Assembly: GCF_000004825.1 (NCBI RefSeq)
Contig: NW_008805070.1
Location: 1,240,001 to 1,304,000, forward strand
Length of the DNA stretch: 64,000 nucleotides
Source of the DNA: Heterostelium album PN500
Taxonomy: Eukaryota; Evosea; Eumycetozoa; Acytosteliales; Acytosteliaceae
Direction: 5' to 3'
Shown here: positions 2,271-55,072 of the stretch, one piece after another
Layout of the letters: each line of letters starts with the position of its first letter
Numbering within the stretch: position 1 is the first letter of the stretch
Made by a program: the position numbers and the translations under genes
The notes under the pieces: model-generated
Databases searched by the model: none
Told to the model about the DNA's origin: nothing
What the model saw: the letters and a program-made list of their open reading frames with translations, nothing else

Positions 2271-2796
2271 GTTTTTAACAACTCTACTTGTTCCAAGAGA
2301 CTTGACGTGTTTGGCCAAATTACTTGTCAAGGCTGTGTTTGTTCTATCAAGTTGGTGGGTGGTCGAAAAAACCAATAAAGATAGCTAGATCTAATCGATT
2401 ATCGTTGGATTTTAAATAGAGATAAAGTTATGTCATCAATCTGTTTATCATTATTTAACTTTAAAAATTCATCTTCACTATTAATAAATACTGATTGAAC
2501 TAGAATGTAAACTCATTGTCCAAATTTATTTAAATGTAAAATGAATGATCATAAAAAAATTATTCTCATTTAATTTTAAAATTTACTCTTACCTCATTAA
2601 AATGAAAAAGAAAAAAACCGTCTTTCAAAAAATTAAACTTTTATTAAACAACCTATTGGATGAGATTGAGAATATAAAGTTCATGTATCTTATATATTTA
2701 TCAATATCTTTTATTATTGTATCTTTCCACCAATAATATCATTTACGATTACTTGTAATACATCATGTAAAATATACTTTTATTTATTATATATTT
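1417..2796. other. AT-rich intergenic stretch with a repeat copy and a 31-A tract
   Basis: There is no convincing gene here. It holds one copy of a dispersed ~44 bp repeat (2023-2066) and, at about 2140-2268, a GC-richer block ending in a run of 31 A. That block could be a decayed short retroelement. The small frames across it are low-complexity. Confidence 0.6.
2023..2066 (+). repeat. Dispersed repeat, copy 1
   Basis: The sequence around GTTCATCAACACTCAACTAC recurs nearly unchanged at 11548-11590. A shorter copy lies in inverted orientation at 47310-47345, each time close to other repeat debris or a tRNA gene. Confidence 0.7.
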
Positions 2797-5785
2797 TTAA
2801 TCAGTTATTCTTTTGAATTTATAAAGTTTATCATTCATAGGTCGAAACTTTCCAATATTAACCAAGTTGTCTGATAAAAGTGATTGATTTAACATTGGAA
2901 TATAGATATCATTTCCATTGAATCCATTGTAAATTAATTTTACTATTTTAATTTGTTGTCCTTTTTCTTGATTTAATATATCGAAAACTTGATTTAACTC
3001 GGTTACTAATGAAATGGGTTCAATCTTGTTATCATTTTTTACAAAAATATTATATTGGATAGTCAATTTCCATATGTTTGGATTCAGATTAATGAATCCA
3101 ATGAAGAACTCGAGATTTAGAGTTTGATCGAGTTTGATCGATCTTAGTTTCGGCGAAGTCTGAAAGATATGTGTCATACAGTCAAAATTATTACATCTAG
3201 TTAATGTAAAGTCTTCTCTGACTTGTATCTTTCTAAGATTGGAAAGAATTATGTTCTTGGGGGGTTCTGAATCAAAATAACAAGATGTGATCAGAGAGTG
3301 TTGATCAGGATTGTCGATGGCGATATCTGTTGTTGAAGCAGATGCTGAGATGTTGACATTGGGACAGGATTTTCTTAGCTCCAAAAGAGCTGATATTTCT
3401 TCATTCACCAAAATTGAGCGTAAATTTGAAAAAATAAATTCCACCGAAACCAATTGATCTTTGTTAGTGGCATCCAACATTCTTTGAAAATGAGTATTTG
3501 TTCCGAATAACGATCTTCTGAATTTAAGGAATTTCAAATTCATAAAGATCGGTGTTTCAGGAATAGAATATCCAAATTCAAAATGTCTATATGATTCTAG
3601 ATTGTCAAGACATTCCGTTTTGAAAGCATAGGGAATATATTTAAGTTCAGTGTCATCCAAGTGAGGAGGTGGTTTCTTGAATAAGCAAAACTGTGAACCA
3701 ATATGTTCGAGTCTGCTTGAAATTCGGATGGTCACGTTTGGAATATTGGTAAAGAGAGAAGAACAACAGTTGAAGAAAATTTTGGAAACCATTGAAAGCT
3801 GAACCTTAGATTTCGTATCCAAGTATTTATCAAAGAGTAACATTGAAATGATATGCTTTAGAACCACATAATTTAAAGTTGGTGTGGGTTTGGTGGTATT
3901 GCAATCTAAATAACATTGTTGAACTGGTGATTTCTGATTTTCTGGAAAGAATCGATTGATATATGAAAAAGATCTTTGATATACTATGATGTTGAAAACT
4001 ATTTGGTGATTTATCTTTTTGAATATTTTGTTGATTAAAGTTGGATCGTGATTGTGTATCCTATCAAACAATTTGAAGCCAATTGAAGCGAATGGATCGC
4101 AAATAACAAAATCTATGGCGAATTTAGAATACAACAACTCTAAAAATATAACGATATTGTCAATACTCTCGATTTCCATGAGAAATTTCATCGAACCAAT
4201 TTCCTTAGCATGCACAATTTTTGATATTGTTGTCCAATATCAAGCTGGTTGTAGTTGTACATGGCAAAGAGAGAGCAAATTTACAATATTTGAAAGTACG
4301 ACAAAATCTGGTTTGAAAGATCTGCAAATGCTTATGGTCTGTAAAGAATCCTGAAACCATTCTGAGGAATTTCATTCGATCGGAAAAAAGATATCCATAT
4401 TCTTGGACATAGCTATTCGAAAATTGAAGAAACTCTAGTTTGAACGGTGTAAGAACACTTTGAATTAATTCGCGATCTAATGATTCCATGAGAATGAGTG
4501 AATTAACCAATACTCTAAATATAACTGGTTCTTTAACTCGTTGATAAAAATACAACAATATCTTGGACAATGAACTGCCAGAGTGATTAATGTAGAGTTT
4601 CCTTGAAAATAATCTTTTACATTTATCAAAATATAATATAATATCCACATCATTCGATTTGATATATTCCAAAATATGATGAAAAAGATTGGAAGGCATT
4701 TCAATGGCTCTCACTCTGTAGATGTCGAAAATAAGCAATGATTCCAAATTCCTTATTCCAACGTGTAATGGAAATTGACGAATCATCATCTCTCCAAACT
4801 CTGATGTTTCCAATCGTTGAACAATAGAATCGACATTAACATCTCTGATAAAGTATGAATTCATTTTAAACAATGAACCAACTAGTATCTTCTTGTTTGA
4901 ACTGCTCGATAAAAACAAATCTATTAGAGCACTTTGTTTGACTTTTACTTTTTTCTTCAAGTAGTGTTGGTATTCTTCTTTGACTTTCTCCTGAGGATTG
5001 AGCCATCCAACATGAATCAAAATATTAAAGAATGTAAGATATTCATTTGATTGTGAATCATCGTCGTTACCCAACATACTTGAATGAATATTAAGTTAGT
5101 TTATAACACTACTGTTGTCAATAGAAAGTAAGTAACTTACCGGAATATGTATTTATCGTTTTTATATATTTGTTCGAGTAAACTAGCATTGACATTCAGT
5201 ATATACCATAATAATATTGTCTTGTTTTGAATTGACAGATTTGAAATACTATTTTTGTTGTTATGATCATCCTCGATACTCTTAAAAAAATAAGATTCAA
5301 TATTGAGTGATATGTTTAACAATGAAAAACGTCGAATGGAGTTGATTGAATTTTCGATCTCTATGCTCTTGAAAAAGATATACAGATATACATCCAGAAC
5401 ATCAGGTTGCTCACAGAATGAAAGTAAGTAACTGATGCAATAGAAATCGTTGAAAAGTGGTGAATTCAGTGCGTTAGAGATAAATGTTTGATTGATTGAT
5501 GTCTTATCAGTTTTAATTTGGCTGAAATATTCTGATATACATTGTTTAACATCATCAAACTGATTGATATCATTCGTAATATCATTATCACTGAGTAATA
5601 CCTATTTAAATATACATATATTACAATGTTAATATTCTGCATGTAATCATAAAAAAACGATCTCGAAAATCCAGTATAATACCTTTATAAAAGAAGAAAT
5701 CAATGAGAATTCATTTTCTTGATTGAAATCATCTTGGTTTAAAGCACAAAAATGTCTTTTTTAAAAATTGCTTAACTTTTGACAT
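2797..5785 (-). pseudogene. F-box-like dictyostelid family gene, frameshifted (left duplication arm)
   Basis: This has three exons by comparison with its twin at 51934-54897: 5683-5785, 5141-5601 and 2797-5078. Both introns have GT/AG borders and lie at the same places as in the twin. The protein would be near 950 residues. A segment in the last third (leucine-rich, with LSMVSKIFFNCCSSL) resembles an F-box, followed by LRR-like text, so a ubiquitin-ligase adaptor is possible but unproven. There are two breaks relative to the twin. One extra T in the T-run of exon 1 (about 5745-5750) shifts the frame. One extra A in the A-run near 4218-4222 splits exon 3 into frames 4205-5077 and 2797-4215. 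The rest is open, so decay is recent or the indels are homopolymer sequencing errors. Confidence 0.75.
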
Positions 5786-5878
5786 AAAATTAATATGTAA
5801 GATATTTCAAACACAATGTTAATGATAACTAAGAATACTGATTGTTTTACAATATATTTTTTGAAGATATTCCCCTTC

Positions 5879-5903
5879 ATTCCCTCATTCCCTCATTCCC
5901 TCA
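5879..5903 (+). repeat. ATTCCCTC minisatellite, three units
   Basis: Three 8 bp units lie just upstream of the left duplication arm's gene. The right arm has six units in inverted orientation (51802-51850). Confidence 0.85.
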
Positions 5904-6064
5904 CCAAAAAATAAAAATAAAATAAAAATAAATAAAAATATGAATCCTAGAAGCGTGGGGCATACCGAAAGTGTTTTTTTATTTATTATTTATTATTTTT
6001 ATTCTTTATTATTATTGAATATTTTTATTTTTTTATTATTATTTTTTGTATTGCTATTTGATTC

Positions 6065-11292: not shown

Positions 11293-11348
11293 TCTAAAAA
11301 CAATTTAAATTTTCCGGTGTCCGGATGCGGTAAGAAAATAAGATAGTG

Positions 11349-11513
11349 TAACCAATGGGTTTTCCCACTATGCCAAAAGGGAAGTTAACTAATTATCATC
11401 TGCTCCACAAGCATCACACAGATGAACCTTCTTAAAGATAGATACCAATTAACCAATGGATTTTCCCGCTATGCCAAAAGGGAAGTTAACTAATTATGAT
11501 CTGCTCCAAAAGC
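11349..11513 (+). repeat. Tandem pair of a ~65 bp dispersed repeat
   Basis: Two copies (11349-11413 and 11451-11513), ~102 bp apart, share AACCAATGG-TTTTCCC and AAGGGAAGTTAACTAATTAT followed by CTGCTCCA-AAGC. TTCCC and GGGAA can pair into a hairpin. A third copy at 47367-47424 is the target of a SINE insertion. Confidence 0.75.
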
Positions 11514-47309: not shown

Positions 47310-47424
47310 CTGGTTGAGTGTTGATGAACAGTGTGAAGTGGTGGTTGGTTTGATAAAATGTAACCTATGGGTTTTCCCTCTATGTAGTAAGGGAAGTTAA
47401 CTAATTATGATGTTCCACAAGCAT
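47310..47424. repeat. Dispersed repeats, copies 3, target of the SINE
   Basis: 47310-47345 is an inverted copy of the repeat at 11548. 47367-47424 is a copy of the hairpin repeat at 11349 (GGGTTTTCCC, AAGGGAAGTTAACTAATTAT). The latter is split by the SINE inserted at 47425. The stretch 47132-47309 is AT-rich spacer. Confidence 0.7.
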
Positions 47425-47645
47425 TTTTTTTTTTTTTTTTTTTTTTAGGTCCATTGCACTAAGGAGGTGTTTTTTATCACCTCCTCACGAGTTGGTGTCA
47501 ATGTATTGCCCCATGGGCTCCTAGGACATCAGTTTTATTATATACGTTCCGGTAGCGGGGAAACTTAGTCATTACCGAGCCTCGAACCCGGGTCGAAGTA
47601 CTGAAGGCCCACGAATGAACCATTTCACTAACTACGTCCTTCGAC
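47425..47645 (-). mobile_element. tRNA-derived SINE with poly-A tail and 16 bp TSDs
   Basis: Read on the minus strand, this ~221 bp element begins with a tRNA-like head: A-box-like TAGTTAGTGAAATGG and B box GGTTCGAGGC inside a paired T arm CCGGG-TTCGAGG-CTCGG. A unique body follows, with a strong hairpin GGAGGTGATAAAAAACACCTCC (printed here as arms GGAGGTG and CACCTCC), and it ends in ~22 A. The direct repeat GATGTTCCACAAGCAT flanks it exactly (47409-47424 and 47646-47661). This is the classic outcome of LINE-driven retroposition of a pol III transcript. It has no coding capacity. It lies ~65 bp past the 3' end of the tRNA-Val-like gene. Confidence 0.85.
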
Positions 47646-47710
47646 GATGTTCCACAAGCATAAAACCAAATCTTATTGCGCGCATGTAGGGTTTTATCAA
47701 ACAAAATATA

Positions 47711-47784
47711 TATCAAGAATGGGAATCGAACCCATGACCCAAACCGTGTTAAGGTTTTGTGATAACCAACTACACCATCCTGAC
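47711..47784 (-). tRNA. tRNA-Val-like (AAC), possibly degenerate
   Basis: A cloverleaf folds: acceptor GTCAGGA/TCTTGAT (weak, with two G-T pairs, one at the terminal position), D arm GTG-TAGTTGGTTAT-CAC, anticodon arm AAACC-TTAACAC-GGTTT with anticodon AAC, and T arm ATGGG-TTCGATT-CCCAT. The A and B boxes are sound. The acceptor stem is poor for a valine tRNA, so this may be a decaying gene copy. Confidence 0.7.
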
Positions 47785-47950
47785 GTTGAAAAATTATTTT
47801 CTAGAAATAACAACTCATCCAAACAAATAATAACTTTTAAATTACACCTACCCATCAAAGATTCTAACTTATACAACAATTTTTTAATAATATGGAAATC
47901 CAGAAAAATAAAAAATAAAAATAAAAATAAAAATAAATAATAAAAACTCA

Positions 47951-48048
47951 CCAATGAATAAATATGGTTGGAACCAAGAAGACGGGTCGTTGTCTTTCTC
48001 TAACTGCCAGATCCATGTCAAGAGTACTCACGCAAGACTAAAACCGAA
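47951..48048. repeat. Inverted repeat, left arm
   Basis: About 95 bp containing GACGGGTCGTTGTCTTTC and CAGATCCATGTCAAGAGTAC reappears inverted at 49094-49186. The arms bracket the LINE relic. Confidence 0.8.
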
Positions 48049-48808: not shown

Positions 48809-49093
48809 TCAAAATCAAAAATATAGACATCCCTGTCGTCTAGTTCTCAACTAAGAGTTGTATAAACAAAGGAGGGTAATGCCAAAGGTAGTTTGATTGG
48901 AAGGACTCAAGATGGACGATTAGAACAAACGGGTCACAACCTAACTAAGATCCCTGCAGCTAAGCTCGCCTGTCATACAAGAGAACCCAATTAATTTTAT
49001 TTATCAAATCTTAATCCAACCAACACAAACTATTAAGGAAAATAAAAAGGATCACTCCTTGGAGTGATCTCCAACTTAACACCATCCTGACTT

Positions 49094-49186
49094 TGGGCTT
49101 TAGTCTTTCGTGAGTACTCTTGACATGGATCTGGCAGTTTGCGAAAGACAACGACCCGTATTCTCCAACCATATTTATGCATTGGT
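49094..49186. repeat. Inverted repeat, right arm
   Basis: Reverse complement of 47951-48048. The sequence ACCATCCTGACTTTGG just before it (49081-49096) also occurs in direct orientation at 48268-48283 inside the LINE relic, pointing to nested rearranged copies. Confidence 0.8.
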
Positions 49187-49295
49187 CCGATTTTTTTGTG
49201 TGTTTTTATTTTTATAAGTGTAATTCTCGTAAGAAATAAAAAGAGTCAAAGGAAATAAATCATTGATAATTATTGAATTGTCAATCAGAATTAAT

Positions 49296-50856: not shown

Positions 50857-51801
50857 TTTATTTTATTGAAATTTCAAGGTAGATAAAAAAGTGATTTAAG
50901 ATATTTATACTGTTCATTTTTTTTGTTACAGATGACATTGAAATTACTTGTTTCTATCTTCTGGAACACCAAGATTTAAAAAATCTTTATCACCCTAAAC
51001 AGGAAAGGAAAGTCAAAAAAAACAAAAATATTTTTTTTAAACAAAAAAAAAAAATTAAAATTATTAAAAACTGGATCTTTTGAAATGAAAAATTTATTAT
51101 TATATATATTAATGTTAATTAAATCATAGAATCTGTAGAATCCGTATTAATGGTTGTGAAAGACAATATAGCGCAGTTGCAGGTTCTAGCTAGGGTAGAG
51201 ATCATGAAAAAGTTAAATTCGATGTAATGTCCATCGATATTAGTGGTGCAACCTTAATTGATTGTTATTATGGAAAGATGAAACTCACTGGAATGCAATT
51301 GATCAAGTATACAAATATCAATGACGCCGAAACAATCAAACAACTAAATACTTTTACATTGGTTTGGTATTATAAGAAAACTCTTTTAATGATGATTAAA
51401 TAGGTATACGGATCTTATCTAACTTTTATTATAATAGCCAAATGATGATAATAATTACTTCTCAAAACCAGAGAACAGACCAAACCCATCTCAGCTTGGT
51501 GTTTAAAGAATAATTTAAATTCAATCTTATTCTTTTTATTTTGTTCACTTACAAATAATATTTCAAACAAATAAAGTTTCCAATTTACTTTCTTGGATAC
51601 CACTTTGTTATCATTAATATTAGTAAAGAATTTCTGGTGCCTTTTTTTTTTTAATTCTTCATTTTAGTTTTTTACTTGCCAAACTTGCCTGAGGGATATG
51701 ACCTGAGAAATTATTTTTTTTTTAAAATCTTTTGACTAGGTTTTTTAAATTAATCTCATAATATTATTTTATTTTATTTTATTTTTATTTTTATTTTTTG
51801 G
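50857..51801. other. Intergenic with possible gene remnants
   Basis: AT-rich. A 58-codon frame on plus (51227-51403, MSIDISGATLIDCYYGKMKL...) and, on minus, an acceptor followed by GDKDFLNLGVPEDRNK-stop (about 50961-51010) look coding-like but lack partner exons. They may be debris of lost genes. Confidence 0.35.
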
Positions 51802-51850
51802 TGAGGGAATGAGGGAATGAGGGAATGAGGGAATGAGGGAATGAGGGAAT
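51802..51850 (-). repeat. ATTCCCTC minisatellite, six units
   Basis: Same 8 bp unit as at 5879-5903, inverted and with twice as many copies. It sits at the equivalent place near the outer end of the right duplication arm. Confidence 0.85.
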
Positions 51851-51933
51851 ATCTTCAAAAAATATATTGTAAAACAATCAGTATTCTTAGTTATCATTAA
51901 CATTGTGTTTGAAATATCTTACATATTAATTTT

Positions 51934-54897
51934 ATGTCAAAAGTTAAGCAATTTTTAAAAAAGACATTTTGTGCTTTAAACCAAGATGATTTCAATCAAG
52001 AAAATGAATTCTCATTGATTTCTTCTTTTATAAAGGTATTATACTGGATTTTCGAGATAGTTTTTTTATGATTAAATGCAGAATATTAACATTGTAATAT
52101 ATGTATATTTAAATAGGTACTACTCAGTGATAATGATATTACGAATGATATCAATCAGTTTGATGATGTTAAACAATGTATATCAGAATATTTCAGCCAA
52201 ATTAAAACTGATAAGACATCAATCAATCAAACATTTATCTCTAACGCACTGAATTCACCACTTTTCAACGATTTCTATTGCATCAGTTACTTACTTTCAT
52301 TCTGTGAGCAACCTGATGTTCTGGATGTATATCTGTATATCTTTTTCAAGAGCATAGAGATCGAAAATTCAATCAACTCCATTCGACGTTTTTCATTGTT
52401 AAACATATCACTCGATATTGAATCTTATTTTTTTAAGAGTATCGAGGATGAACACAACAACAAAAATAGTATTTCAAATCTGTCAATTCAAAACAAGACA
52501 CTATTATTATGGTATATACTGAATGTCAATGCTAGTTTACTCGAACAAATATATAAAAACGATAAATACATATTCCGGTAAGTTACTTACTTTCTATTGA
52601 CAACAGTAGTGTTATAAACTAACTTAATATTCATTCAAGTATGTTGGTTAACGACGATGATTCACAATCAAATGAATTTCTTACATTCTTTAATATTTTG
52701 ATTCATGTTGGATGGCTCAATCCTCAGGAGAAAGTCAAAGAAGAACACCAACACTACTTGAAGAAAAGTAAAAGTCAAACAAAGTGCTCTAATAGATTTG
52801 TTTTTATCGAGCAGTTCAAACAAGAAGATACTAGTTGGTTCATTGTTTAAAATGAATTCATACTTTATCAGAGATGTTAATGTCGATTCTATTGTTCAAC
52901 GATTGGAAACATCAGAGTTTGGAGAGATGATGATTCGTCAATTTCCATTACACGTTGGAATAAGGAATTTGGAATCATTGCTTATTTTCGACATCTACAG
53001 AGTAAGAGCCATTGAAATGCCCTCCAATCTTTTTCATCATATTTTGGAATATATCAAATCGAATGATGTGGATATTAGAAGATTATTGTCAGGGAAACTC
53101 TACATTAATCACTCTGGCAGTTCATTGTCCAAGATGTTGTTGTATTTTTATCAACGAGTTAAAGAACCAGCTATATTTAGAGTATTGGTTAAATCACTCA
53201 TTCTCATGGAATCATTAGATCGCGAATTCATTCAAAGTGTTCTTACACCGTTCAAACTAGAGTTTCTTCAATTTTCGAATAGCTATGTCCGAGAATTTGT
53301 ATATCTTTTTCCCTATCGAATGAAATTCCTCAGAATGGTTTCAGGATTCTTTACAGACCATAAACATTTGCAGACGATCTTTCAAACCAGATTTTGTCGT
53401 ACTTTCAAATTTTGTAAATCTGCTCTCTCTTTGCCATGTACAACTACAACCAGCTTGATATTGGACAACAATATCAAAATTGTGCATGCTAAGGAAATTG
53501 GTTCGATGAAATTTCTCATAGAAATCGAGAGTATTGACAATATCGTTATATTTTTAGAGTTGTTGTATTCTAAATTCGCCATAGATTTTGTTATTTGCGA
53601 TCCATTCGCTTCATTTGGCTTCAAATTGTTTGATAGGATACACAATCACGATCCAACTTTAATCAACAAAATATTCAAAAAGATAAATCACCAAATAGTT
53701 TTCAACATCATAGTATATCAAAGATCTTTTTCATATATCAATCGATTCTTTCCAGATAATCAGAAATCACCAGTTCAACAATGTTATTTAGATTGCAATA
53801 CCACCAAACCCACACCAACTTTAAATTATATGGTTCTAAAGCATATCATTTCAATGTTACTCTTTGATAAATACTTGGATACGAAATCTAAGGTTCAGCT
53901 TTCAATGGTTTCCAAAATTTTCTTCAACTGTTGTTCTTCTCTCTTTACCAATATTCCAAACGTGACCATCCGAATTTCAAGCAGACTCGAATATATTGGT
54001 TCACAGTTTTGCTTATTCAAGAAACCACCTCCTCACTTGGATGACACTGAACTTAAATATATTCCCTATGCTTTCAAAACGGAATGTCTTGACAATCTAG
54101 AATCATATAGACATTTTGGATTTGGATGTTCTATTCCTGAAACATCGATCTTTATGAATTTGAAATTCCTTAAATTCAAAAGATCGGTACACGGAACAAA
54201 TACTCATTTTCAAAGAATGTTGGATGCCACTAACAAAGATCAATTGGTTTCGGTGGAATTTATTTCAAATGTAAGCACAATGTTGGTGAGTGAAGAAATG
54301 TCATCTCTTTTGGAGCTCAGAAAATCCAGTCCCAATGTCAACATCTCAGCATCTGTTTCAACAACTTCTATCGCCATAGACAATCCTGATCAACACTCTC
54401 TGATCACATCTTGTTTTTTTAATTCAGAACCCCCCAAGAACATAATTCTTTCCAATCTTAGAAAGATAGAAGTCAGTGAATACTTTACATTAACTAGATG
54501 TAATAATTTTGACTGTATGACACATATCTTTCAGACTTCGCCGAAACTAAGATCGATCAAACTCGATCAAACTCTAAATCTCGAGTTCTTCATTGGATTC
54601 ATTAATCTGAATCCAAACATATGGAAATTGACTATCCAATATCGTATTATTGTGAGTGATGATAACAAGATTGAACCCATTTCATTAATAACCCAGTTAA
54701 ATCAAGTTTTCGATATATTAAATCAAGAAAAAGGACAACAAATTAAAATAGTAAAATTAATTTACAATGGATTCAATGGAAATGATATCTATATTCCAAT
54801 GTTAAATCAATCACTTTTATCAGACAACTTGGTTAATATTGGAAAGTTTCGACCTATGAATGATAAACTTTATAAATTCAAAAGAATAACAGATTAA
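51934..54897 (+). pseudogene. F-box-like family gene, frameshifted (right duplication arm)
   Basis: Three exons: 51934-52035, 52117-52577, 52640-54897, mirror image of 2797-5785 with the same intron positions and sizes. Exons 1 and 2 are open, unlike in the left copy, where exon 1 is shifted. In exon 3 two A are missing from the A-run near 52767 (GAAGAAAAGTAAAAG versus GAAGAAAAAAGTAAAAG). The product then stops at 52850, while a 699-codon frame continues from 52798. In total ~985 residues would be encoded, with an F-box-like segment (LSMVSKIFFNCCSSL) and leucine-rich C-terminus. Each copy is intact exactly where the other is broken. Confidence 0.75.
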
Positions 54898-55072
54898 TAA
54901 TAATAAAATTATTAAAAAATTTTATTTTAATTAATATTAATTTGGACATACAAAATTCATCATCTTTATAAATATTTTACAAATGAAATAAATTTTTAAA
55001 AAAAATGAGTTAAAAAAAAAATCTAAAAACTGATTAGTTTCTCCTTTTATTTTTTTTTTGAAATCTCCACAA

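Follow-up and report, generated by a model that had tools for sequence, protein, structure and literature searches.

A tRNA-derived SINE located mainly behind Pol III-type genes in a social amoeba and probably moved by a TRE3-like LINE

The stretch of Heterostelium album PN500 DNA analysed here (64,000 nucleotides, C9:1240001-1304000; the window) contains a short, A-tailed element that lies close to a tRNA gene, and the locus raises the question of what this element is, how it moves and why it is found where it is. A first-pass annotation had read it as a tRNA-derived SINE with a 16-bp target-site duplication, and that reading stood up to examination. The element, here called SINE-1, is a full-length copy of 199 nt that ends in 22 A residues and is flanked by a perfect 16-bp duplication. 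The A box, B box, hairpin and tail that had been listed are all present and read on the minus strand; the orientation of the element and its targeting are additions made here. The features of the locus are as follows.

47425..47645, minus strand: SINE-1 element, 199 nt plus 22 A (one of 23 genome matches, at 100% to itself; perfect duplication at both ends)
47646..47661, minus strand: target-site duplication, 5' copy in element orientation (sequence comparison)
47409..47424, minus strand: target-site duplication, 3' copy in element orientation (sequence comparison)
47620..47630, minus strand (read 47630-47620): A box TAGTGAAATGG (sequence and tRNA-Gly alignment)
47578..47588, minus strand (read 47588-47578): B box GGTTCGAGGCT, one mismatch to the consensus GGTTCGANNCC (sequence)
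47460..47487, minus strand: 3' hairpin TGAGGAGGTG-ATAAAAAA-CACCTCCTTA, 10 bp (folding and shuffles)
47425..47446, minus strand: A tail, 22 nt (sequence)
47711..47784, minus strand: tRNA-Val(AAC), presumed target gene (65 bp upstream of SINE-1, same strand)
47359..47424, minus strand: short repeat with SINE-1 at its edge (related copies at 11347-11414 and 11450-11513, 3' of tRNA-Cys)

The sequence GATGTTCCACAAGCAT occurs at 47409-47424 and again at 47646-47661, the two copies being 100% identical. The duplication is not a product of chance, since about 0.2% of 506 mismatched flank pairings matched its score and the element recurs elsewhere in the genome. On the minus strand the body of SINE-1 runs from 47645 to 47447, and the run of 22 T residues at 47425-47446 forms the tail. 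The hairpin has a predicted energy of -15.7 kcal/mol that was equalled by none of 200 shuffles. Internal Pol III promoter boxes (A and B) can be read directly in the tRNA-like head, as can a T-arm-like stretch, CCGGG-TTCGAGG-CTCGG. Among the 18 tRNAs tried, tRNA-Gly and tRNA-Glu aligned best to the head, and in each case none of 300 shuffles did as well; the Rfam tRNA model gave no match to the head even at E<=10. Taken together, the two boxes, the T-arm-like stretch and the tRNA-Gly and tRNA-Glu alignments support the derivation of the head from a tRNA.

The neighbouring gene, described in the first-pass annotation as tRNA-like, proved to be a normal tRNA-Val(AAC) gene with SINE-1 on its 3' side. 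The same annotation placed the element inside another repeat, and this was correct in part: positions 47359-47424 do match a short repeat, but the match stops with the duplication and the DNA on the tRNA side is, by eye, unlike that beside the two other window copies, so SINE-1 is at the edge of the repeat. The repeat itself is about 65 bp long (47359-47424, 11347-11414, 11450-11513) and has 13 genome matches; at least two further copies share a strand with a listed tRNA gene and follow it by 77-80 bp. With a loose pattern scored without a chance control, 19 of 23 tRNA genes are followed, 15-35 bp downstream, by the start of a TGCGCGCA or CCGCATGCGG-like motif (at about 11320 and 47685 in the window). 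The window also holds an inverted repeat on the 5' side of tRNA-Val (47921-48048 and 49093-49215; 85% identity over 128 bp, about 1 kb apart), which may be a DNA transposon, and a 3.2-kb inverted repeat (2768-5940 and 51765-54929) with 96% identity.

The 32.9-Mb genome (39 contigs) served as the search space for further copies, and the 23 matches to the window element represent 21 distinct insertions when L009 and L019, and likewise L020 and L023, are read as the halves of single copies that have been interrupted by LINE pieces. Six copies (L001, L002, L003, L004, L006 and L011) are 98-100% identical in local alignment, L009 and L019 have identities to the window copy of 99% and 96%, and L012 is 78-91% identical to other SINE-1 copies. 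When this older copy was used as the genome query it yielded 19 matches and no further insertion. Eight of the 21 insertions have a target-site duplication of their own, 11-19 bp in length. Seven were found by script, with swapped flanks equalling their scores in 0.2-3% of 506 pairings, and the eighth, the 12-bp CCTTTTGACTCT around L009+L019, was read from the flanks. Two of the copies with duplications, L006 and L011, are truncated at the 5' end, a combination that is a signature of target-primed reverse transcription. A tails are visible at SINE-1 copies, and both the variable duplications and the A tails that the first-pass annotation had said to look for are therefore present; short remnants lack both tail and duplication, the tailless ones being L018, L020, L021 and L022 (matched bases: 69 in L018, 42 in L020 with 31 more in its other half, and 33 in L022). 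In L004 the sequence GCAATGGACC that precedes the A tail has been replaced by its reverse complement, GGTCCATTGC.

Comparison of the flanks at 17 loci revealed no block common to the DNA around SINE-1, and duplication of whole loci, which would leave flanking DNA shared beyond the duplications, was rejected on these grounds. The pieces that do recur are the tRNA-Lys gene of L004 and L013, the tRNA-Glu gene of L006 and L007 with about 30-40 bp on each side, LINE pieces and other repeats, together with a 91-bp stretch (82% identical) in the flanks of L005 and L006 that lies at different distances from SINE-1. These results confirm that SINE-1 is a real and recently active family of short retroposons in a social amoeba.

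We scanned all 23 loci with ARAGORN and Rfam; with split copies joined, these are 21 loci (66 kb) that hold 17 Pol III-type genes. Twelve of the 21 insertions begin 19-79 bp downstream of such a gene and on its strand. The targets are seven tRNA genes at 56-79 bp (tRNA-Val 65, Leu 77, Lys 57, Glu 79, Sec 79, Gly 56 and an intron tRNA 71 bp), one RNase P RNA gene at 50 bp (99.7 bits in Rfam) and four Class I RNA genes at 42, 19, 37 and 60 bp; the Class I matches at L015 (38.2 bits) and L022 (32.0) are below the Rfam cut-off of 41.5, and three of the 12 counted insertions (L018, L020 and L022) are short tailless remnants. A thirteenth insertion, L021, is separated from a Class I gene by 157 bp that include a LINE-A fragment. 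The zone used for the test, 150 bp on the same strand, was set once the data had been seen; with the 17 genes as trials and 12 of them inside it the binomial tail is 1.9e-16, and with the same post hoc zone it is 1.6e-14 for the 13 genes at or over the Rfam cut-off (10 in the zone) and 1.5e-10 for tRNA genes alone (7 of 9). For the remaining eight insertions (L003, L005, L007, L008, L012, L013, L016 and L017) no Pol III gene was recognised in the zone, and an Rfam search of these loci to E<=1 found none on that strand in the 150 bp upstream. One of the eight is L003, a young, full-length copy flanked by a duplication; L007 and L013 have an opposite-strand tRNA gene 205 and 697 bp upstream, and L016 is within the 3' region of a LINE-B.

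A coordinate table built from 63 listed tRNA genes, those scored out of 1916 first-look candidates, is too thinly filled to be used for SINE-1, with one of 21 insertions within 150 bp of an upstream same-strand gene and, at 2 kb, one same-strand and two opposite-strand cases. The Class I RNA family (RF01414, a Dictyostelium family in Rfam) has 12 matches in the genome, 11 of them over the cut-off, and none in 14 control genomes, all of which are prokaryotic. We infer that Class I RNAs are made by Pol III, and the positions of SINE-1 are indirect evidence that their genes are Pol III units.

Three LINE families were selected from a search for RVT_1 domains (40 matches). LINE-A and LINE-B combine an endonuclease-like domain with a reverse transcriptase, both over the Pfam cut-offs; LINE-C has a reverse transcriptase and an endonuclease match of 18.5 bits, which is under the cut-off. 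Copies of all three are found, as is SINE-1, behind Pol III-type genes. For LINE-A, 37 matches to the 3' end were obtained and 30 loci were cut out and scanned with ARAGORN and Rfam; in six of the 24 copies whose 5' end is included, a Pol III-type gene precedes the element by 24-95 bp on its own strand (L059, L061, L064, L065 as seen through L031, L075 and L077; distances by hand). Seven LINE-B regions were fetched: two of the five taken blind to tRNA content have a same-strand tRNA gene upstream, the last two of the seven having been chosen for their tRNA gene. The LINE-C regions were chosen for a nearby tRNA and serve as illustration outside the counts. When the 63 listed tRNA genes are taken as reference and small overlapping pieces are left aside, nine of 40 LINE-C ends have a gene upstream on their own strand within 2 kb (none in each of the three other positions), as do five of 40 LINE-B ends (one upstream opposite, none downstream) and four of 36 LINE-A ends (none upstream opposite, one downstream on each strand). 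Three copies behind tRNA genes have mixed 5' ends, in which LINE-C is joined to a LINE-B piece (L100), a LINE-A piece (L102) or a 21-nt SINE-2 piece (L104); either template switching or nested insertion could account for them.

The comparison of the SINE-1 3' end with LINE 3' ends that the first-pass annotation had recommended did not identify a partner. The last 69 nt before the A tail aligned to LINE-A, LINE-B and LINE-C no better than did 1168, 1576 and 224 of 2000 shuffles, respectively, and a genome search with the SINE-1 3' end found SINE copies only (16 of 16). The best of the three matches, to LINE-C, consists of ACAC-AACT and an AGGT..ACCT stem and, with 224 of 2000 shuffles as good, is not put forward as a link; insertion distance was set aside as a guide too because the ranges overlap too far. 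With no significant LINE tail on SINE-1, its LINE partner stays putative; SINE-1 may rely on the A tail alone, or its LINE may have been lost.

A second tRNA-headed element, SINE-2, was found behind SINE-1 in L002. It is about 425-430 nt long, has a tRNA-like head and an A tail like those of SINE-1, and gave 15 genome matches. Seven of these matches were fetched, L096 being already known to lie near a tRNA gene, and each of the seven follows a tRNA gene of its own strand at a distance of 82-136 bp, compared with 56-79 bp for SINE-1; L069 is similar, at 85 bp. Of the ten head-bearing copies recovered (L091-L097, L069, L002 and L059), eight are directly behind a tRNA gene, with L002 and L059 second in line behind another element. 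Pieces that lack a full head (L053, L067, L071, L072 and L076) were left out of this count; the one in L076 begins about 102 bp behind tRNA-Met. Unlike SINE-1, SINE-2 has a LINE-C tail: its 3' end matches that of LINE-C with a score of 61 that none of 2000 shuffles reached, and the first hairpin has paired changes between the two (GCAGGT/ACCTGC versus GTAGGG/CTCTAC). On sequence grounds SINE-2 and LINE-C look like a classical SINE/LINE pair, and their common tail suggests that a SINE here can be carried by a LINE associated with tRNA genes.

We consider it highly probable that SINE-1 is a tRNA-derived SINE moved by a TRE3-like LINE that is aimed at the 3' side of Pol III genes. The head of SINE-1 would carry an internal Pol III promoter from which an RNA ending in an A tract is made, and a TRE3-like LINE would reverse-transcribe this RNA in trans. 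The LINE machinery, drawn by a presumed contact to the 3' side of Pol III genes, would for that reason bring SINE-1 to positions downstream of them, where it would land by target-primed reverse transcription, 19-79 bp away and on the same strand.

The cue that guides the machinery can be read in two ways, both of them compatible with the identification of SINE-1 as a SINE. One holds that the B box, with TFIIIC, is recognised, as has been proposed for TRE3 in D. discoideum, where PMC5911963 places the target downstream of a B box that may be internal or external. A B box at 0-1 mismatch is indeed present in five of the seven tRNA targets, and we give this reading a somewhat less than even chance. 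The boxes of the tRNA-Sec and intron tRNA targets have two mismatches and were equalled in 9 and 12 of 60 shuffles, and the non-tRNA targets argue against it: in 150 bp of upstream sequence plus gene and spacer, the best B box at the RNase P locus has two mismatches (23 of 60 shuffles as good) and those at the five Class I loci, L021 included, have 3-4 (26-60 of 60 as good). The RNase P insertion is 381 bp from the start of the gene and 50 bp from its end. Because the RNase P and Class I targets have no recognisable B box, these six loci, two of which have sub-threshold gene matches, suggest that the cue is the 3' side of the Pol III unit and not a fixed distance from a B box. Non-tRNA targets of this kind give direct access to the question whether TRE3-like machinery recognises B box/TFIIIC, TFIIIB or a polymerase that is terminating.

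A broader and more doubtful proposal, which we offer tentatively, is that the LINEs and SINEs of this genome form a guild attracted to the 3' end of whichever Pol III unit is active (tRNA, RNase P RNA or Class I RNA), with or without a B box, and that SINE copies, which would be Pol III units too, then serve as landing pads in their turn. One LINE-A, flanked by a 14-bp duplication, has apparently inserted about 48 bp behind the SINE-1 copy L007 on the same strand (L007/L033; C16, ~178700-183500), and a LINE-C end lies inside the SINE-1 copy L019. If the proposal were true, the family would renew its own safe haven.

Selection in place of targeting could also produce the pattern, if SINE-1 inserted anywhere and copies survived mainly in the gene-poor pockets behind Pol III genes. 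The compact genome is in keeping with this, as are the eight insertions lacking a recognised gene in the zone, but survival alone would be expected to leave copies on both strands and over a wider spread, whereas the 13 Pol III genes found upstream of a SINE-1 copy at no more than 160 bp all share its strand, and the seven tRNA genes among them fall in the 56-79 bp band; we regard this explanation as improbable. That SINE-1 is no SINE at all, being instead a LINE derivative with an internal deletion or a host gene resembling a tRNA that was duplicated along with its locus, is scarcely credible in spite of the missing LINE tail and the failure of the Rfam tRNA model, for none of 16 LINE/RT loci resembles its 200-nt body (best E 4.6), its flanks are not shared as blocks and its duplications differ from locus to locus.

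SINE-1 thus belongs to a known kind. In general, tRNA-derived SINEs have a tRNA-like head with A and B boxes, an unrelated body, an A tail, variable duplications and 5' truncation, and SINE-1 shares all of these features. The usual SINE is widely dispersed, whereas SINE-1 is concentrated behind Pol III-type genes, and to our knowledge SINEs with a defined insertion site are few. The Entamoeba element EhSINE, which is not known to be tRNA-derived and is mobilised by EhLINE, resembles SINE-1 as a short non-autonomous element in an amoebozoan. Our searches of openly accessible papers turned up no described dictyostelid SINE family. PMC4683709 tabulates the SINEs counted by RepeatMasker, 88 for D. 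discoideum and 57 for D. purpureum, and names no family there. PMC5006619 surveyed the 3 kb on either side of tRNA genes from P. pallidum and four further species, and its text as consulted makes no mention of a SINE.

The closest parallel, judged from published descriptions, is with TRE3, the dictyostelid non-LTR LINEs treated in PMC5911963 and PMC5006619, which share with SINE-1 an A tail and a position downstream of tRNA genes. The TRE3 type of targeting (downstream of tRNA genes, same orientation, about 40-150 bp) is seen at the seven SINE-1 tRNA-gene loci, although eight of the 21 insertions have no recognised gene. TRE3 elements are LINEs with ORFs; SINE-1 has its own Pol III boxes and at 199 nt plus tail is too short to encode an endonuclease and reverse transcriptase, in contrast to LINE-A and LINE-B. 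Unlike TRE3, it is also found behind RNase P RNA and Class I RNA genes. What is new in SINE-1 is the association with Pol III genes, non-tRNA targets included. Finding a SINE mostly behind Pol III genes in so dense a protist genome suggests that the safe-haven targeting of a LINE can pass to non-autonomous elements.
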